From Kiritimatiellia bacterium (GTDB taxonomy: Bacteria; Verrucomicrobiota; Kiritimatiellia; RFP12; UBA1067): DNA of 37,231 nt. A program made the position numbers and the translations under genes. The notes under the pieces were generated by a model that was not told where the DNA came from, searched no databases, and worked only from the letters and a program-made list of their open reading frames with translations. The DNA lies in contig JAGYOL010000010.1 of NCBI GenBank assembly GCA_018399555.1, positions 1-37,231 of the forward strand, given 5' to 3'. Positions 9,652-36,426 of this stretch are shown in pieces (the first letter of the stretch is position 1; each line of letters begins with the position of its first letter).

Positions 9652-11445
9652 TTATTGCTGAAGCCGACGTACATAAATGTAATAAGCACCGCATACCGCT
9701 CGTTTACGTTCATCATTGAAGGCGCTCACAATCCGACTCGTCAGCTCCGCGGCGAGATCAACCGTAAAAATTGCAGCAACATCTTTATCACCAACTTCGG
9801 TGCTCCACTCTCCCACCCCTTCAATCGATAATGTCGCCGAAACAACTGAACTGAGAGCCTCTCCCGCACCGCTTTTATCCGAAGCCTTGATGGCACTGCC
9901 CTCCTCCCTTGGCCAACGCCGCAACTCAAAGCGGTATTTGCCGGGTTTTGCGAACCGCACCGCGCTGGTGCGCGATCCCCCGGCAGCACGCATCACCATC
10001 TGCTGGTTCCAGGGAGTCATCGCTTCACCAATCCAATCATGCGAATAAAGCACGTCCTCATCCATCACACCTAATACCACCGGCGGGAAATCTGCCTGCC
10101 CCGCGGATATCGTCTCCCACCACTCTTCATAAACCTTCGATAACTCCCTGACAACACGCTCGGCAAGTTCAGCGGATTCCTGCGTTAAATCAACCCTCTG
10201 CGCCCGATCGTCAACCGCATCAAAAAGTTCGAATTTTTCTTTCAGATTATTGCGCACAAGCCGCCATTTGTGCCGGATCTCTCCACCCTTCACCTCATCC
10301 CACATCACCTGCGCACGTTTCCACTTCTCCAGCCGCGCCCCGCGTTGAGTGTCAACAATCCAGCTGCGGGAAATCGGCTTATAATTATCGCCTGCTAACA
10401 TTTGGCGCAAACTTGCTCCATGCAGCGGCAACCCTCCGACAGGTTTTTGTAAATTGAACAAATCAATGAAAGTCGGTAGAAAATCGGCGGCGACCGTCAA
10501 AGACTCAACATCACGTGCCTGCTCCTGAGTGCCTGCGATCCCGCCGTTCTTCCAGCGCCAGAAACATGGCACCCGATGCCCTCCGTCATAACAGGAACCC
10601 TTTTTGCCTCGCAGCCCACCCGTGCGGGGTCCCGCCGTTCCGTTGTCGGTTGTGAAAATCAGCAACACATCATCACGTATGCCCTCCCCTGTCAGAAATT
10701 TTTCCAGCCGTCCCATATTCACATCAAGGTTTTCAACCAATCCGTCAAAACCGGGCTTTCCGCCATGCGGCGCGTTAAAGGGGCTGTGCGCAGCATTTGT
10801 GGGCAGGTAACAGAAAAAACGTCTGCCATCAGCAAGAGAATCCCGCACAAATTCCATCGCACGGCTGAACCAGTAGTCAGTGCAAAACTCATCAGCCTGT
10901 ACCAATCTTCCGTTTTCCATGTAAACATCCGGCTCCGCCTTGCCTCCATCAAACTTTTTCACCGAGTAGTAGTCATTACCCCAGTAATCCGGCATCTGCC
11001 CCACACCGCCGCCGCCATGGATCACACTGGTTTCAAACCCTCGAAAACGCGGCAGATAAGGATAACCGTCACCTAGATGCCACTTACCGAATATCCCGGT
11101 GCTCCAACCGTTCACTTTAAATATATCAGCCATCGTCTGCTCATTTTCAAACAGCAATGACCTTCCCGCAATTGTGTGCTGAACCCCGCCAGCGTTTATG
11201 TATCGCCCGGTCATCAGGGAACCGCGTGTCGGTGAACAGGTGGTACCGACATGAAAATCCGTGAACCTCAGACTTTCACCATACAACCTGTCAATATAAG
11301 GTGTTTTAAGTCCCGCATCAGGTTCCAGAACATTAATGTCGCCATACCCGATATCATCAACAAGTACCAGAATTACACCTTTTGGCAAGGCTTCACTGTT
11401 TATACCTGCCAAAATCATCAAACATGAAAATGCCAATCGCTTCAT
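9652..11445 (-). CDS. Secreted sulfatase (FGly type, S1 family)
   Basis: Hydrolyses sulfate esters, probably on polysaccharide, outside the cytoplasm. An N-terminal signal peptide (about 1-20) precedes the alkaline-phosphatase-like fold. Metal ligands D30-D31 are in VLVDDIGYGD. The formylglycine motif is C70-S-P-T-R, followed by GSLMTGR. GKWHLG (120-125) supplies Lys and His. AAHSPF (218-223) and TDNG (266-269), with GGHRVP (288-293), complete the active site. Residues beyond about 440 form a C-terminal region with YEEWWETI, as in arylsulfatase relatives, and a longer beta-rich tail. Activation would need a formylglycine-generating enzyme or anSME, which is not in the window. The gene is divergent from the AICAR transformylase gene and has no partner on its strand. 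Confidence 0.95.
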   Translation of the reverse strand: MKRLAFSCLMILAGINSEALPKGVILVLVDDIGYGDINVLEPDAGLKTPYIDRLYGESLRFTDFHVGTTCSPTRGSLMTGRYINAGGVQHTIAGRSLLFENEQTMADIFKVNGWSTGIFGKWHLGDGYPYLPRFRGFETSVIHGGGGVGQMPDYWGNDYYSVKKFDGGKAEPDVYMENGRLVQADEFCTDYWFSRAMEFVRDSLADGRRFFCYLPTNAAHSPFNAPHGGKPGFDGLVENLDVNMGRLEKFLTGEGIRDDVLLIFTTDNGTAGPRTGGLRGKKGSCYDGGHRVPCFWRWKNGGIAGTQEQARDVESLTVAADFLPTFIDLFNLQKPVGGLPLHGASLRQMLAGDNYKPISRSWIVDTQRGARLEKWKRAQVMWDEVKGGEIRHKWRLVRNNLKEKFELFDAVDDRAQRVDLTQESAELAERVVRELSKVYEEWWETISAGQADFPPVVLGVMDEDVLYSHDWIGEAMTPWNQQMVMRAAGGSRTSAVRFAKPGKYRFELRRWPREEGSAIKASDKSGAGEALSSVVSATLSIEGVGEWSTEVGDKDVAAIFTVDLAAELTSRIVSAFNDERKRAVCGAYYIYVRRLQQ

Positions 11446-13015: not shown

Positions 13016-13930
13016 TTGAAAAAAACGTTGACTACATTCGCCATAATTGTGCTGTGCTGGATAGCAGGCAACCTGATCCATTGGAGCTGGATCAGTTATC
13101 GATATAAAATTTGGAACAAAAAAATCACCCGGAACAACAACGGTTTGTTGGAACACGCCAACTCTTTCACCTGCGGCCAAGGTACTACAGCCCTGATATT
13201 CATCCACGGCTTCGCCGATCTGCCATACGGATGGAAAAGAATTGCTGAGCGCCTGACAGAATCTCACTCCTTCACATCTTTTGTAATGCGAGTGCCTCCC
13301 TGGGGACAAACACTTTCATCCCAGCACCAACTTAAACTGAACGATATCCGTTCCGCAATCGATTCAAAAATTGCCGAAGCCGCACAATCCCACACCGACA
13401 TCTGGCTAATCGGTCACTCTATGGGTGCCGCCTTTATCATCGATGCCCTGCCACGCAATAATGAAAGTGTAACCGGAATAGTTGCCTTGGCCCCCCTTAT
13501 CCGAATCTCAAATAAACGTGTTCCTGTCGGAACAGCTGAATTCTGGTACCATCTGGGAACCAAAGTGCTGTGGCTCGCCCGTACCTTTGAATCACCATTT
13601 ACTGAAAGAATTACGGCCGCAGATGATGCCGACTTCAACTATGCGGTCGATAAATTTATACCCTACAGTGTTTATAACTCCCTCTTCGCCGTCACCGGAA
13701 GTAACCGGAATATAACCATACCAAAAAATACGCCGGTCTTCTGCGCTCTCAGTAGCCAAGATAAAGTCATTGATAACAAATATGCTAAATCCTGGTTCGA
13801 CTCGCTTCAAGGGCCTAAAGAACTTTATCTCGACAATGTTGCGAATCATGCTCTTCACGTCGGAGAAAACTGGCAGGAACTTACCGATAAAATCGCAGTG
13901 TTCATCTTGCAGCAAACAAAAACTATTTAG
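13016..13930 (+). CDS. Membrane-anchored alpha/beta hydrolase
   Basis: A serine hydrolase of the lipase/esterase fold, with an N-terminal membrane anchor of about 20 residues (LTTFAIIVLCWIAGNLIHW) just after Lys-Lys. The oxyanion region is LIFIHGFADLPYG. The nucleophile elbow is GHSMG (Ser135 from the start used). The acid is probably in SSQDKVID, and the catalytic His in VANHALH. Substrate unknown. The frame is open back to a GTG at 12881 inside the preceding gene. I prefer the TTG at 13016 because it begins a normal signal-anchor (MKKTL), while the extra N-terminus partly shadows the transformylase gene. No ribosome site supports either start. The 3' end overlaps the end of the transposase gene by four bases, tail to tail. 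Confidence 0.72.
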   Translation: MKKTLTTFAIIVLCWIAGNLIHWSWISYRYKIWNKKITRNNNGLLEHANSFTCGQGTTALIFIHGFADLPYGWKRIAERLTESHSFTSFVMRVPPWGQTLSSQHQLKLNDIRSAIDSKIAEAAQSHTDIWLIGHSMGAAFIIDALPRNNESVTGIVALAPLIRISNKRVPVGTAEFWYHLGTKVLWLARTFESPFTERITAADDADFNYAVDKFIPYSVYNSLFAVTGSNRNITIPKNTPVFCALSSQDKVIDNKYAKSWFDSLQGPKELYLDNVANHALHVGENWQELTDKIAVFILQQTKTI

Positions 13931-14946
13931 CCGTCGTCAGGAATGGAAATCACTCCGACCTGCAACTCCCTGGCTGCACATAAACCGCCCCACTCACCGT
14001 ATTTCATTATCTTAGCCCCGCGGTTGCGCTTTTTATCTGTAAAATAAAGCGCGTGCTCGCGAAACATCTTATTTACAAAACCTTTGCTCCCTATAATAAA
14101 CCCGTCAGAAAAATACCTGACTTTACATCGTAAAATATCAGGCAGCGACAACCGCCCCCCTTTCTCAAGAACCAAATCAACCATGTCTTTGGAAAAACCA
14201 GGTCGTGCCATTGCCCCTGTCAAACCATCAAACCGACACTCTCCCCGATAATATATAAATTTCCTGTATCGCATCAGAGCATCCTGTTTGCAAAGGTTAG
14301 CATCTTCATTGACAAACAGATGCGAAATACCCTGACCGGCCCTCCCCGCCATCGCCCTCGCCTCACCATACCCCGACCATCGGTAGTCTTCAGGAACACC
14401 GACGATTCCGGCTCGAACAGGATTGAGGTCAATGTAGGCCGCAATTACAAGCTGAGCATGCTGATTTTCCTCAACCAGCACACTTTTGTATCTCTCTTCC
14501 CAAAGCGTACCACGTCTCGCATGGACGGAATTGTAGAAAATTGAAAACCTTTGCTTAAAGGTCTTCATAAATTCGGAAAGATCATACATCCTTACGCGGA
14601 AATTATTGATCTGCTCCTGTACCAGATACTCCTGCCCCTGTTCTTCCCAACGTCTAAATTGCTCTTCAATCCCGGAAAACTTCTTTTTACCGTATAATAC
14701 CCTCGCCCTTGATATCACCTCAGTATCCGAAACCTCATTTTTTAAAGGCACGTGCAGTAACAGATGGAAATGATTGTCCATTATAGCGTAAGTTCTTACC
14801 TCACAACCAGTAAAAACCTCTAACCTTCTCATAAGATGCCGCAGATATTCCTTTTCCCTCTCTCCAATCAACAACTGCCGGTCTACTATCCGACTCATAA
14901 CATGATACGTCGCTGCTGTGTCCAGCTTTAACCTCGCCTTGCGCAT
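13927..14946 (-). CDS. REP-associated tyrosine transposase (RAYT, IS200/IS605-like)
   Basis: A Y1 HUH single-strand transposase of the domesticated REP-associated group. The HUH pair is H59-F-H61 in MDNHFHLLLHVP. The catalytic Tyr is Y171 in AAYIDLNPVRAG, a block diagnostic of the family. It opens with MRKARLKLDTAATYHVMSR, also typical. The C-terminal third carries GSKGFV and a basic tail, probably for binding the repeat. The upstream frame is longer by 22 codons, but the ATG at 14946, after a purine-rich AAAGGAAAAGGG, fits the family start. At 339 aa it looks intact. Short direct repeats with the sequence GTGCCTGTCCC lie just 5' of it at 15015-15065 and are the likely recognition elements. 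It sits between convergent and same-strand host genes without breaking them. Confidence 0.93.
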   Translation of the reverse strand: MRKARLKLDTAATYHVMSRIVDRQLLIGEREKEYLRHLMRRLEVFTGCEVRTYAIMDNHFHLLLHVPLKNEVSDTEVISRARVLYGKKKFSGIEEQFRRWEEQGQEYLVQEQINNFRVRMYDLSEFMKTFKQRFSIFYNSVHARRGTLWEERYKSVLVEENQHAQLVIAAYIDLNPVRAGIVGVPEDYRWSGYGEARAMAGRAGQGISHLFVNEDANLCKQDALMRYRKFIYYRGECRFDGLTGAMARPGFSKDMVDLVLEKGGRLSLPDILRCKVRYFSDGFIIGSKGFVNKMFREHALYFTDKKRNRGAKIMKYGEWGGLCAARELQVGVISIPDDG

Positions 14947-15014
14947 ATGCACCACCCTTTTCCTTTCTTTAAAACACAACCATAATAACACAAAAACACC
15001 AATTGTCAACAACT

Positions 15015-21676: not shown

Positions 21677-23008
21677 TCAGCGTTCCGGCTTCTGCCAGGG
21701 AACTGCTCCTGCCCGCTGGATATGACGGCGCATTCTGCCGAGCAGCTCATTGAGTTTTTTTCTGTTTTTGTCGGCTCGATTGTCCGATTCATAAGGGTCT
21801 TCCTGCAGGTTGTAGAGTTCCAGAGCGGAAAAGGGATCGTTCTGCATCAGTTTCCATCCGTCGAAGATCAGTGCCTGGTATGACTTGCCGGCATAGCGGT
21901 TGCCGCCCTCGCGACGGACGAAGTACAATTCGCGCTTCTCCGGCATATGTCCGTTGGCAAACAGAGGCATCAGGCTAACGGCATCTATTCCACTCGGCAC
22001 ACTGCCGCCGGCAGCTTCGATGCAGGTGGGGAAGAGGTCGAAATTCAGGCCGTTGTAATCGCACTGTGATCCCGGTTTTATTACACCCGGCCAGCGCATC
22101 AGAAAGGGAACTCTGATGCCACCGTCGTAATGACTTTGTTTACCGTCGCGCCAGGGATCATTGTTCTGCGCATGCGGCAGAGATCCACCGTTATCTGCAG
22201 CGAAGGCAACGAGCGTGTTTTCAATCAGCCCCGTAGCATCCAGAGTTTTGAGCACTGCACCGATATTATGATCGAGGTGTTCAACAAAGGCCACATTCAG
22301 CAAACGTTTTCTGTCTATATTTTTTTCGCGCTGACTGACTTTATCGATCCATTCCTGCGGAGGCTGGATAGGAAAATGAGGCGCATTGTATGCAAGATAC
22401 AGGAAAAAAGGTTCTTTTTCATTTTTGCGTCGCTGCAGATAATCGATACTCCACTGCGTAAAAATTTCGGTGGCGTGTCCTTCAGGATCGATCTCCGTCT
22501 CATTCAGGCGCATATAATTGAAGCCTTCGCGGAGATGAGTGACATAATCGTCCATCATGTCGCCCAGAAACCCGTGAAAGAGGTCGAAGCCCCGCTCGGT
22601 GGGGGTATTGGGTGATTCCAATCCAAGATGCCACTTGCCGATGACAGCGGTGTGGTAGCCGCATTGATTCAGCTCGTCGGCCAGGGTCGGCACGGAGGTA
22701 TCTAAAAAGCCCCAGCTATTCTCAGCTCTAGTGCGTATCACACCCGGCACGCCTACGCGGTCGGGGTAACAGCCGGTCAGAAGTGCCGCTCGTGAGGGGG
22801 AGCAAACGGTGCAGTTGGCGCGCATATTGCGAAAAAGCATTCCCTCCTGCGCGATACGGTCGATATTGGGTGTTTTCACATCTGCATGACGATATGCGGA
22901 AACGTCGCCGATCCCCTGGTCATCGGTATAGATGATCAGGATATTCGGTTTCGGCGCGGCCAGAGCATGTATTGTGAGAGCCATCAAGCTGAAAAACAGC
23001 AGTTTCAT
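21677..23008 (-). CDS. Secreted sulfatase (FGly type, S1 family)
   Basis: A second sulfate-ester hydrolase, 443 aa. Signal peptide at about 1-18 (MKLLFFSLMALTIHALAA), then metal ligands D29-D30 in IYTDDQG. The formylglycine motif is C69-S-P-S-R, followed by AALLTGCYPDRVG. IGKWHLG, APHFP and AADNGG supply the remaining active-site residues. It ends soon after ELYNLQEDPYE, the usual end of the S1 core, so it lacks the extra tail of the other sulfatase. The frame begins 11 codons upstream, but the ATG at 23008 starts the signal peptide and has GGAG at six bases. It is 105 bp downstream of the 851-aa exported protein gene and probably in one unit with it. Confidence 0.95.
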   Translation of the reverse strand: MKLLFFSLMALTIHALAAPKPNILIIYTDDQGIGDVSAYRHADVKTPNIDRIAQEGMLFRNMRANCTVCSPSRAALLTGCYPDRVGVPGVIRTRAENSWGFLDTSVPTLADELNQCGYHTAVIGKWHLGLESPNTPTERGFDLFHGFLGDMMDDYVTHLREGFNYMRLNETEIDPEGHATEIFTQWSIDYLQRRKNEKEPFFLYLAYNAPHFPIQPPQEWIDKVSQREKNIDRKRLLNVAFVEHLDHNIGAVLKTLDATGLIENTLVAFAADNGGSLPHAQNNDPWRDGKQSHYDGGIRVPFLMRWPGVIKPGSQCDYNGLNFDLFPTCIEAAGGSVPSGIDAVSLMPLFANGHMPEKRELYFVRREGGNRYAGKSYQALIFDGWKLMQNDPFSALELYNLQEDPYESDNRADKNRKKLNELLGRMRRHIQRAGAVPWQKPER

Positions 23009-23113
23009 AATTATCTCCATAGTATTCGCCGCAGGTGACACTTGAACATATCTGCGGACAACAGTTACGAGCTGTTCCGGTTCCAGAACAACTGGATTGA
23101 TCCGGTCTAATGG

Positions 23114-32887: not shown

Positions 32888-32915
32888 AGTTTATCAGATT
32901 GTTTGTCAGAGTCAA
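32888..32915 (-). promoter_or_regulatory. Possible promoter for ppdK
   Basis: On the minus strand TTGACT (32910-32915) and TAAACT (32888-32893) are 16 bp apart, which would give a leader of about 50 bases. The -35 is good, the -10 is moderate. Confidence 0.35.
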
Positions 32916-32997
32916 TCATTATAAGCTGCAATGTTGTGCGGTCGAACGCTTCAGTGGGCTGGACAAAATCCAGCCTGATAGGGTAAGATTATCTCGT

Positions 32998-34641
32998 ATG
33001 AATAAGTCTTCCCATATATCAGAGCGTGTTGCCGGGATGCTCCGCTCTTCACTTTGCACCGCGTTGTCACTTTGCAGCATTGCAGCCGCCGGCTCTCCGA
33101 GTTTCCGCTCAGACAAGCTCTACCCTGAAATGGGACTTAAAATGAGGGTGCTGGGCAACTCCGAACCGGTAGCACTGGCGCAACCCGGCACCTACACATA
33201 CACTCTGACCAGAGGCGATGAAACTCTGCGTCAGGAGCGGTTTTCACCCTACGAGCTGTGGTATGCTTCGCAGCACTGCGGCACCTGGCGGGACAGTAAC
33301 GGCAACACCCTCACAATCGGGCGTGTGAAGCGGCACTCTCCCCAATTCAAGGAAGAGCATGTGTTGCGCAACGTTTTCGATCAGGCGATGGCGCAGGAGG
33401 CCAATCAGGTCAATGAACATGATGAGCAGGCACTGCTGCGATGGACATCTGCCTTTGCACGGGCAACGCCCGCTGAAATTGTCAAGCTACGTACATCACT
33501 AAATTTCAATCTCAGCAGCGCTCTGTTTCTGCCGGTCGAGGACGGCAATCCGCTGATCTATCTTTTCCGGGTGACAATTCGCACTCCGACCGGAAGAAAG
33601 GTTCCCTCGGATTGGTTCTGCGCGGTGATTGATATAAAGGATGGCAGCGACACTTCCAGCGTCCGGAAAAACTTTGAAACACAGTTCCTCAAGAAAGTGT
33701 CCGCCGCGCCACGCACCTACACCACAACCAAGCCGAACATCTCATTCAAGGAGCTCAAAACGAATCTTGGTAGCAGCCCAAAGAAGTTTACCGACACCCC
33801 TGCCAGAGCAGCCGCCCGCAAATCAATCGCCAATATGCGCGATTGGTGGTACGCTGAAACCGATGAGTATATCTTTCTCTCGGATATCCGCAGCTCCGAC
33901 GGCAAGTCACTTGTCCGTCGGCTGCAACACGATATGCCGCATCTCCGCCAGGCTTTTGTTAAACTGGTACCTCCCTTTGAGCCGATCACCGAAACCAGCG
34001 TAGTGCGCATTTTTGAAGAGGCTGCTTCCTACAAGCAGTATGTGGGCGAAACGATGGAATGGAGCATTGGAGCATGGTCGCCGATGCGACGCGAACTTGT
34101 CATTCTGGCGCAAGGCAGCGATGAAGAGAAAACCATGCAGATTATCCGGCATGAGGGTTTTCATCAATATCTCTTCCATTCCTGCTCAATGATAACAACC
34201 TCGCCCTGGTTCAATGAGGGGCACGCCTGCTTTTTCGAATCGGCGGAGGTGGAACGCAGCGGGAGAGTTGAAATAAATGAAAACAGCCGCGTGCGATATC
34301 TGTTGACTCATCTTGATCAAGCTGCAGAGATGCTGCCCGAAATGCTCGAAATCGATTACTCCCGCTTCTATGATCAGAACGCGGAGCGGCGCACACTTAA
34401 CTACACCACCGCCTGGGCTTTGATCTACTTTCTGCACAAGGGTGCACCGCTGGGAAGCTCCAATCCGTACAGATCGGTACTCTCAACCTATCTGCGTGAA
34501 CTGCAGCGTACCAGATCGGCGAACGAAGCGACCACAAAGGCATTCAGCGGTATTTTAATGAAAAATCTGCAGGAGGATTTCACCGAATTCTGGAAACACA
34601 AGCGTAGCCGCGCCCGCCGTTATAATTTGCTGTCAAAATAG
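32998..34641 (+). CDS. Secreted gluzincin-type zinc metallopeptidase (DUF1570-like)
   Basis: Probably an exported protease. A signal-like hydrophobic stretch (SSLCTALSLCSIAAAGS) lies near residues 17-33. The zinc site is H385-E-G-F-H389 in IIRHEGFHQYL. The third ligand is probably E407 in PWFNEGHACFFE, the gluzincin pattern. Around residues 305-315 MRDWWYAETDEYIFLSD opens the catalytic domain, as in DUF1570 proteins. The N-terminal 300 residues are not recognised. The frame is open back to 32899, but the ATG at 32998 gives the most sensible N-terminus; one at residue 14 (MLRSS) is an alternative. It is divergent from ppdK and tail-to-tail with the McsB-like gene. Substrate unknown. Confidence 0.75.
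   Translation: MNKSSHISERVAGMLRSSLCTALSLCSIAAAGSPSFRSDKLYPEMGLKMRVLGNSEPVALAQPGTYTYTLTRGDETLRQERFSPYELWYASQHCGTWRDSNGNTLTIGRVKRHSPQFKEEHVLRNVFDQAMAQEANQVNEHDEQALLRWTSAFARATPAEIVKLRTSLNFNLSSALFLPVEDGNPLIYLFRVTIRTPTGRKVPSDWFCAVIDIKDGSDTSSVRKNFETQFLKKVSAAPRTYTTTKPNISFKELKTNLGSSPKKFTDTPARAAARKSIANMRDWWYAETDEYIFLSDIRSSDGKSLVRRLQHDMPHLRQAFVKLVPPFEPITETSVVRIFEEAASYKQYVGETMEWSIGAWSPMRRELVILAQGSDEEKTMQIIRHEGFHQYLFHSCSMITTSPWFNEGHACFFESAEVERSGRVEINENSRVRYLLTHLDQAAEMLPEMLEIDYSRFYDQNAERRTLNYTTAWALIYFLHKGAPLGSSNPYRSVLSTYLRELQRTRSANEATTKAFSGILMKNLQEDFTEFWKHKRSRARRYNLLSK
33457..33472. repeat. REP-core-like palindrome inside the peptidase gene
   Basis: GCACGGGCAACGCCCG matches, in reverse complement, 16 of the 19 bases of the palindrome at 21553-21571, and is read in frame as part of FARATPAE. 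It could be chance in GC-rich coding DNA or a repeat that entered the gene. Confidence 0.3.
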
Positions 34642-34706: not shown

Positions 34707-35828
34707 TTACCTGAAGGTCAGTTTCACTCCGCTCAGACGTTCACGCAGCGCATTGGCGCGGGCACAGCTTACGTACTCAATTGCTTCAGCCGCTGTTCCG
34801 CGGAAACGCCCGAGAAAGCTTGAAGCCCACATCTCACGATGCAGCCGATCAAGCCGGGCAACGGTCAACCCTTTGACCAACCCTATCTGCACACCCAGTC
34901 GCAACCACGAGACATACTCAAACAACTCGGGGCGGGTCATGATAAAGGCACTTCTGAGCATTGCCAGCGAGCATGAGATTTTGTTATACAATCCCCGCCT
35001 GGAGCCCGGGTCGCCCAGCACCCTCTCCCTTGCCTGCACCTCCTGCGCGGCCAGATCTCTGACCATACGCCGGAGCTTCTCTAGAACCGCCTCTTCGCTC
35101 TCTGTGACACTCATGTTGTTGGATATGCTCAACATCTGACCGAACCCCTCCACAAGTGGGTCCTCCGGCATATCCGACTCCATCAACAACCCCGCAGCCA
35201 GACAGGCGTTTGAAATTTGTTTCAGTTCATCGAGATGCGCAAGCGCCGGCAGATGCACTCTGACCGTCAGCTGCAGACCGGTACCGCAGCACTCCGAGTC
35301 CGGCAGCAGATAACCGAAACTTCTACTCCATGCGAATTTCAGCCGGGTACTAAACAGATCATCAAGGGCATCGACCTCCCGCCAGGCTTTATCCAGCTGA
35401 AAACCCTGTCGGATATCCTGCAGAACAAGGTGATGCCGTTCGTTGACAAACCCGTGCACCGCAGTTCCGGCACAGGTCAGAACACCGCTGTATTCATTGC
35501 TCTTGCTGTTTCTGAGATTTTCGGTGATAACGCCACGTTCGAAGTATTCGATCATTTTCCAGTCGGGCACATCGGTCAGCGGCTTCAACCGCAACCGATG
35601 GATTGCGGCAATATCGCGAACAGCATCGTCAATCTTGCGAAAGACCGCACAATCTTTTTTTGAATTATCAGCGGAGACCGGTAACGCAACGGCACCCGAA
35701 AAATCCGCTTCGATCTTTTTCTCAACCTCACGGGTTGTTATAAACCGATGACCGGCCAGATTACGACACAAACGTGCTCTGCTCCAGAGCACCACACCGG
35801 ACGACCTCGGCGAAACAGATCTTTTCAC
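34707..35828 (-). CDS. mcsB: McsB-like ATP:guanido phosphotransferase, divergent active site
   Basis: Related to McsB, the kinase that phosphorylates protein arginine and marks proteins for ClpCP. The frame of the family is clear: VVLWSRARLCRNL (12-24), GFVNERHHLVLQ (126-137), FGYL...GTG...VHLPAL (171-196), and SISNNMSVTESEE near 235-250. The catalytic positions differ. The Cys of the usual CPTNxGTG loop aligns with D177 (loop DSECCGTG, same length). NEEDH is N129-E-R-H-H133. The Arg/Gly loop before the ISN block (RGLYGEG in others) reads DPLVEGFG. So arginine kinase activity is doubtful by the known mechanism, although C180/C181 lie in the loop. The start codon overlaps the McsA stop (ATGA), which implies joint expression. 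Confidence 0.8.
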   Translation of the reverse strand: MKRSVSPRSSGVVLWSRARLCRNLAGHRFITTREVEKKIEADFSGAVALPVSADNSKKDCAVFRKIDDAVRDIAAIHRLRLKPLTDVPDWKMIEYFERGVITENLRNSKSNEYSGVLTCAGTAVHGFVNERHHLVLQDIRQGFQLDKAWREVDALDDLFSTRLKFAWSRSFGYLLPDSECCGTGLQLTVRVHLPALAHLDELKQISNACLAAGLLMESDMPEDPLVEGFGQMLSISNNMSVTESEEAVLEKLRRMVRDLAAQEVQARERVLGDPGSRRGLYNKISCSLAMLRSAFIMTRPELFEYVSWLRLGVQIGLVKGLTVARLDRLHREMWASSFLGRFRGTAAEAIEYVSCARANALRERLSGVKLTFR

Positions 35829-36352
35829 GATTCGCCTTCAGAACTTCTCAGACGCTTCACCCGACTTTCAACATCCTCAAGAGCCAGTTTTAAACGAAAA
35901 ACATCATCAAACCGCTGTTCCCGTACAGCATCGTCTATCTGACTTTTCAGTGCGATTATCTCAATACCGTCCACCGGTTCCTGCGGACGTTTACCTCTGT
36001 AGCCGCCTTCAAGCTGGCGTTCTCTGATCTCCTGTTCAAATGTTTTATAACAGACGGGGCATCCCAGATTCCTGAATGACGCATTACCTGTCAACCCAAA
36101 ACCGCACTGCGGACAGCATTTGCCTGAATTCAAGCCGGCGATCTTTATGGTGGCATCCATAAACACCTTGACATTCGGAACTCTAGCCAGCGCACCATCC
36201 GGGCTGAAACGGTCGGTCGGTTCCGCCGATGAAGAGCCGGAGCACTCCACCCGCGCACAGTTCTCACAGACAAAAACATCCTGCTCAAAACCATCCACAA
36301 CCTTGCGGATGGCTCTGGTGACATCATGTGTTTCGCATATTTCACATTTCAT
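35825..36352 (-). CDS. mcsA: McsA-like zinc-finger protein with UVR motif
   Basis: The activator partner of McsB. Four Cys pairs can bind two zinc ions: C3-C6, C29-C32, C80-C83 and C98-C101. A C-terminal UvrB/UvrC-type motif lies around residues 133-168 (LKSQIDDAVREQRFDDVFRLK). The linker between the first and second zinc halves is Ser/Pro-rich. Length is 175 aa, usual for McsA. The frame extends upstream, but the ATG at 36352 sits eight bases after GAGG and begins the first finger (MKCEIC). It is the first gene of the unit, with mcsB overlapping its end. ctsR and clpC, the usual neighbours in Firmicutes, are not here. Confidence 0.9.
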   Translation of the reverse strand: MKCEICETHDVTRAIRKVVDGFEQDVFVCENCARVECSGSSSAEPTDRFSPDGALARVPNVKVFMDATIKIAGLNSGKCCPQCGFGLTGNASFRNLGCPVCYKTFEQEIRERQLEGGYRGKRPQEPVDGIEIIALKSQIDDAVREQRFDDVFRLKLALEDVESRVKRLRSSEGES

Positions 36353-36426
36353 AACTGAATCCTCACCATTGTCTGAATATATTGTTTTGCGGTTGCCGAT
36401 CCCGGCCAATTCACTTAATTTAACTC

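Follow-up and report, generated by a model that had tools for sequence, protein, structure and literature searches.

A McsB homologue without the known catalytic residues in Verrucomicrobiota and its possible kinase-free service to ClpC

What can a homologue of McsB, the bacterial arginine kinase that marks damaged proteins with phosphoarginine, still do once the residues that support phosphorylation have gone? This question is raised by a gene of a Kiritimatiellia bacterium located in a window of 37,231 nucleotides, i.e. the whole stretch of DNA analysed here, which is an entire contig (C2) of a genome of 2.86 Mb that is 82% complete. The first-pass annotation had read the gene as a McsB homologue deprived of the known catalytic residues, and this reading is borne out by Pfam (PF00217), PDB and fold matches together with the alignment. 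The features concerned are the following.

34707..35828, minus strand: mcsB homologue (putative McsB pseudokinase), 373 aa, GTG start, recognized by Pfam, PDB and fold matches
35825..36409, minus strand: mcsA homologue with two zinc fingers of four Cys each and, at the C-terminus, a UVR-like segment, overlapping mcsB by 4 nt
35430..35444, minus strand: NERHH (residues 129-133) replacing NEEDH, the equivalent of E121 being R131 (alignment)
35298..35300, minus strand: codon of Asp177, in place of the catalytic Cys167 (alignment)
35265..35315, minus strand: former catalytic loop GYLLPDSECCGTGLQLT (residues 172-188), the equivalent of R176 being Q186 (alignment)
35160..35180, minus strand: former RG-x-YGEG substrate loop, ESDMPED (residues 217-223; alignment)
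34971..34973, minus strand: codon of C286, in place of Arg272 (alignment)

Elsewhere in the window, genes identified by eye include a convergent gene downstream of mcsB with a zinc-metallopeptidase-like RHEGFHQY motif (32899-34641, plus strand), two sulfatase-like genes (9652-11445 and 21677-23041, both minus strand) and a REP-associated-transposase-like gene (13927-15012, minus strand).

The protein and its former active site

As judged from its sequence, the protein is certainly a homologue of McsB. It matches Pfam family PF00217 (ATP:guanido phosphotransferase) with an E-value of 7.8e-26 and, over residues 70-365, the McsB chains of the PDB with E-values of 1e-24 to 1e-25; the NCBIfam McsB models give E-values of 1e-19 to 1e-46, every one below the curated cut-off. 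The best fold matches of its AlphaFold2 model (mean pLDDT 85, pTM 0.84) are solved McsB chains, aligned over the full length (6tv6, E 1e-25, TM-score ~0.8), and by homology the McsB-specific dimerization domain at the C-terminus is present besides the guanido-kinase domain. Fold, length, dimerization domain and an overlapping mcsA partner are thus shared with the McsBs of Bacillus, Geobacillus and Staphylococcus (PDB 6fh1-3, 6tv6, 8gqd, 8wtb/c), but the catalytic Cys, the NEED glutamate, R125/R176/R207, RG-x-YGEG and R337 of these enzymes have been lost. The phosphagen (arginine, creatine and taurocyamine) kinases belong to the same superfamily and have the same catalytic-domain fold; they act on free guanidino compounds, whereas the window protein is devoid of their shared catalytic residues.

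In the numbering of Geobacillus McsB (native number = PDB chain index minus 4), the position of Cys167 is occupied by Asp177, since the Cys loops align without gaps (GYLTSCPTNVGTGLRAS against GYLLPDSECCGTGLQLT in the window). In the NEEDH region E120/E121 correspond to E130/R131, the phosphate-binding arginines R125, R176 and R207 to V135, Q186 and E217, and the phosphoarginine (pArg) receptor R337 of the C-terminal domain to V353. The replacement of the catalytic Cys by Asp and the change of NEEDH to NERHH (N129-H133), both reported by the first-pass annotation, are therefore confirmed by the alignment. The RG-YGE loop, described there as missing, is in fact present and two residues longer; its residues R207, G208, G211 and G213 are indeed changed, to E217, S218, P221 and D223, and ‘missing’ is inexact because the alignment still pairs E222 with E212 (Asp is found there in sister species G182). 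Model confidence in this loop is low at residues 221-228. The N-terminal RxRLxRN motif, found in 55/55 active McsBs versus 8/105 pseudokinases, is kept in the genus of the window, as RARLCRN in the window protein, and nucleotide binding may be possible because R17 and R19 remain.

A sequencing or frame error was ruled out, the changes being common to two other species and the frame being open. The active-site changes exceed chance, as they are shared within the genus and the columns lost in pseudokinases include known active-site residues. On this alignment it is nearly certain that the window protein has lost canonical catalysis: with the catalytic Cys, the Glu, three phosphate-binding arginines and the receptor arginine lost, no arginine phosphorylation by the known mechanism is expected, and inactivity would be the outcome according to established phosphagen-kinase chemistry.

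Among the alternatives, the chief one to have any support is that the site was rebuilt for another chemistry or ligand, with the participation of residues such as D177, C180/C181, R17 and R19. DSECC, which holds D177, C180 and C181, is common to all three species of the genus (the window's, G181 and G182), a Cys at the position of C181 is met in nine pseudokinase genera and in 0/56 active McsBs, which have V, L or I there, and the RARLCRN motif is kept. Against this, E121, R125, R176 and R207 are all gone and the new chemistry at C180/C181 suggested in the first pass finds no positive evidence; a comparison of columns revealed no common set of new polar residues across pseudokinases, the substrate loop is predicted at low confidence, and relatives of genus g94 do without the whole region (see below). 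Such a repurposed enzyme is unlikely. The Cys at the C181 position (window 35286-35288) is the residue before the GTG motif, and its equivalents occur in family f1 (genera g1, g2, g91, g93 and g97), f4 (g108), f33 (g153 and g171) and f23 (g32, one genome).

Recurrent loss under selection and a fused gene

The pseudokinase reading, supported by the loss of residues, applies far more widely than the first-pass annotation could see. A score counting nine active-site residues was computed for 164 McsB rows, of which 163 come from the phylum (one genome being represented by two fragments) and one is the Geobacillus reference; nearly all compared genomes are fragmented assemblies. The score is 9/9 in 56 rows and 0-5 in 108, with no row at 6-8; within the window's order the PF00217 matches fall into strong (E <1e-46) and weak (E >1e-35) ones. 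Identical McsB sequences connect other families of the phylum with Opitutaceae and Lentisphaeria, which identifies the phylum as Verrucomicrobiota, whereas the window's class differs from both of theirs. A genus-limited oddity is ruled out by these surveys of order and phylum. Both states were read inside families f1, f13, f23, f27, f35 and f45, and f21, f34 and f69 also hold both, on the basis of sequence for one side and of the score for the other. Loss is thus recurrent, because active and dead forms coexist within at least six families; provided that the families are monophyletic, that descent was vertical and that the nine residues were never regained, there were at least six independent losses and probably nine or more. 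On the McsB protein tree 8 changes are needed, of which supported branches impose 4; the tree serves as a guide only because of its long branches and low support. The annotation ‘protein arginine kinase’ would be wrong for such genes in many Verrucomicrobiota.

The positions invariant in active McsBs and lost in pseudokinases include E120, E121, R125, C167, N170, R176, R207, G208, G211, E212, G213 and R337, the pArg receptor R337 being rarely kept. Pseudokinase genera conserve the fold and the C-terminal half, for instance E251 (100%), R255 (96%), R272 (86%) and E287 (84%), as well as D268 and A342. In S. aureus, R262 and E277, which are the counterparts of R272 and E287 in the register of the PDB alignment, join McsB subunits by a salt bridge (PMC12467219, citing Lu et al. 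2025). At R272 the genus of the window departs from the rule, with C286.

The partner McsA is retained. The window homologue matches NCBIfam McsA with an E-value of 4.5e-14, under the curated cut-off; its true start is likely the ATG at 36352 (MKCEIC...), the listed reading frame starting at an upstream TTG. As announced by the first-pass annotation, all eight zinc cysteines are present (residues 22, 25, 48, 51, 99, 102, 117 and 120 of the long TTG-started reading) and the gene overlaps mcsB, the GTG start of which shares 4 nt with the mcsA stop (gaatcGTGAaaag). Across the survey the eight cysteines are kept in 50/50 McsAs beside an active McsB and in about 101/102 beside a pseudokinase, with exceptions mostly at contig ends, and mcsA adjoins the full-length pseudokinase mcsB in nearly all loci.

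These observations bear on the idea of mere decay, according to which the pArg pathway became dispensable, the kinase gene came under relaxed selection and is being lost, and the protein has no function. Degeneration in many lineages, a broken mcsB in two genomes of genus g2 and the lack of any PF00217 match in some surveyed genomes would agree with it. However, dN/dS between close pairs is 0.05-0.34 for pseudokinase mcsB, similar to the 0.04-0.22 of active mcsB, with both halves of the protein constrained in pairwise comparisons; this purifying selection extends to the genus of the window (0.13-0.24, with dS near saturation). Intact frames in ~100 genomes, the kept zinc cysteines of McsA and the constraint on the fused protein described below also argue against decay, which is improbable. 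The two g2 genomes may represent true decay, G084 (L061) having an in-frame TAG in mcsB and G192 (L132) an mcsB split over contigs.

In genus g94 (61 genomes, same family as the window), a single frame of ~295 residues stands upstream of clpC. In the encoded protein, a linker joins the first zinc finger of McsA to the C-terminal half of McsB, which starts after the catalytic loop; with phmmer the protein aligns on B. subtilis McsB 173-318, i.e. after Cys167. This fused gene was found in 56 of the 61 genomes and in 10/10 of those of good quality; most copies are whole and in a single frame, a few being cut at contig ends or broken. It stops a few bases from the clpC start, and its dN/dS is 0.05-0.31. 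The true absence of McsB from g94, which was the impression given by Pfam, is ruled out by this fused and shortened gene. In S. aureus, the catalytic Cys is oriented by an McsB loop with which the second zinc finger of McsA is in contact (PMC12467219); the pieces lost in g94 fit together, because the second finger and its McsB contact loop are both absent. The fusion loci are L371-L380, L204, L205, L208, L209, L210 and L135, and escape recognition by Pfam.

ClpC and the remainder of the phosphoarginine pathway

The N-terminal domain of ClpC has two pArg sites, with E32 and E106 as pocket glutamates, and R9, at or near the pArg1 site, anchors the resting state (PMC12583610). Numbering follows the B. 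subtilis ClpC domain, the letters of which match the residues named in that paper. R9, E32, T81, R83 and E106 are all intact in 47/47 genomes with an active McsB, whereas in pseudokinase genomes of the window's order R9 is kept in 4/62 and E106 in 40/62; in the genus of the window, ClpC displays R9Q and E106I. The co-change of ClpC is rarer in pseudokinase genomes outside the order, and it does not always follow the pseudokinase state, because genus g32, with many pseudokinases, keeps the tested pArg-pocket residues in 11/11 cases. In a reduced set of rows the ClpC pocket is intact in 47 with active McsB, and altered in 36 and intact in 19 with pseudokinase (n=55). This association is confounded by ancestry: a test on independent pairs gave 4 supported pairs and none opposite, too few for significance. 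K85 of ClpC is lost in half of the pseudokinase genomes of the order and R9 in nearly all; as read from sequence, these losses suggest that the repression of ClpC has itself changed in the order.

The rest of the pathway was also surveyed. YwlE-like phosphatase loops (C-T/S-G-N-x-C-R-S-P) are present in 13/16 examined genomes with active McsB, 7 of them with the Thr that marks YwlE. Among the copies typed, such loops occur in 0/28 genomes with a pseudokinase, fused or undetected McsB, where the loops met were all of the tyrosine type (C-H/L-G-N-I-C-R-S) or arsenate-reductase-like (CTGNSCRSQ). The first-pass annotation had proposed searching the genome for YwlE and for a second McsB: no low-molecular-weight phosphatase match and no second guanido-kinase gene were found in this genome (82% complete), and no YwlE-type phosphatase in three genomes of the genus. 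With R337 replaced by V353, a ClpC without E106 and R9 and no second guanido kinase seen, its suggestion that the protein binds phosphoarginine is left unsupported. ClpP is present in the genome.

The gene clpC lies directly downstream of mcsB in the two sister species (G181 and G182), as in the McsB systems of Bacillus, Geobacillus and Staphylococcus, and in many other relatives. The binding of ClpC by the McsB pseudokinase is plausible because of this adjacency. Against a model based on ClpC, clpC of the window's own genome is located on another contig (C253), apart from mcsB, and the interface residue R272, kept elsewhere, is absent from the genus.

Another partner could be a heat-shock repressor, on which the protein might act as a kinase-free transcriptional regulator, given that B. 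subtilis McsB removes CtsR from DNA independently of its kinase activity (PMC5506225). Unlike the Bacillus, Geobacillus and Staphylococcus systems, however, the order of the window is without CtsR, which was not found in 157 genomes of the order by a search in which the Lactococcus control matched; a role linked to CtsR is ruled out by this absence, and regulation of transcription is quite improbable. The B. subtilis control genome yielded no match for PF00217, Clp_N or CtsR even though the species has these genes; its operon seems to be missing from the control, the negatives of which carry no weight. Least probable of all is a genuine atypical arginine kinase with low activity supported by E222 and the remaining nucleotide-binding arginines: E222 aligns with E212, R17 and R19 are kept and animal arginine kinases in which the Cys alone is mutated retain some activity, but here the loss affects several essential residues at once, G182 has Asp at the place of E222, ClpC of the genus is without R9 and E106 and the three genomes yielded no YwlE-type phosphatase, so that this reading is very doubtful.

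A possible kinase-free role of McsA–McsB

We consider it rather likely that the McsB pseudokinase is retained, bound to McsA, to regulate ClpC or act as its adaptor independently of pArg. The window McsB has preserved the fold of a guanido kinase, its dimerization domain and its McsA partner, but would no longer phosphorylate arginine. The pArg pathway appears to have been dismantled around it, with ClpC pArg sites degraded in the genus, no YwlE-type phosphatase and no second kinase seen, and McsA–McsB most likely persists as a kinase-free regulator or adaptor of the unfoldase ClpC. Recurrent loss of the active site, combined with selection on the gene and its partners, likewise makes service to ClpC without kinase activity probable. 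McsA–McsB may bind ClpC and either control its assembly or bring clients to it directly, in a MecA-like manner devoid of chemistry, with a presumed function of scaffold, adaptor or brake. The fusion of a McsA finger with the C-terminal half of McsB immediately upstream of clpC in g94 could represent the end state of this path.

The parallel with MecA-type ClpC adaptors, which concerns the proposed non-enzymatic binding of ClpC controlling its assembly or substrates, is a likeness of working only, and no kinship of sequence or fold is claimed; MecA covers both ClpC pArg sites (PMC12583610). Bacterial Ser/Thr pseudokinases also retain a kinase fold for regulation without catalytic residues (PMC12599244), but theirs is the eukaryote-like kinase fold, whereas the window protein belongs to the phosphagen kinase superfamily. 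McsB appears in that review in the reference list only. In the accessible part of the open-licence literature on McsB with pseudokinase, pseudoenzyme or Verrucomicrobia, a dead McsB is not described, and no open-licence paper was found that combines McsB and Kiritimatiellae. A kinase-free adaptor is without precedent in McsB itself, because B. subtilis McsB must be active as a kinase to serve as an adaptor of ClpC (PMC5506225, PMC2628427). Against the B. subtilis case, the pseudokinases would be either a counter-example or the bearers of a newly evolved contact.

For the phylum as a whole the proposal is more tentative: it may well be, although we would not quite count on it, that McsA–McsB of Verrucomicrobiota repeatedly became a kinase-free regulator of ClpC, giving rise to a new fused family in one genus and revealing a conserved non-catalytic function of McsB. 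Recurrent and near all-or-none loss, accompanied by change of the ClpC pocket, also makes it possible to test by phylogeny where the Clp system relies on pArg. In B. subtilis, the kinase and adaptor roles of McsB have not proved separable (PMC5506225), and the natural pseudokinases, above all the g94 fusion, are natural separation-of-function forms. If a pseudokinase or the fusion still binds and controls ClpC, then a kinase-independent role of McsB exists.
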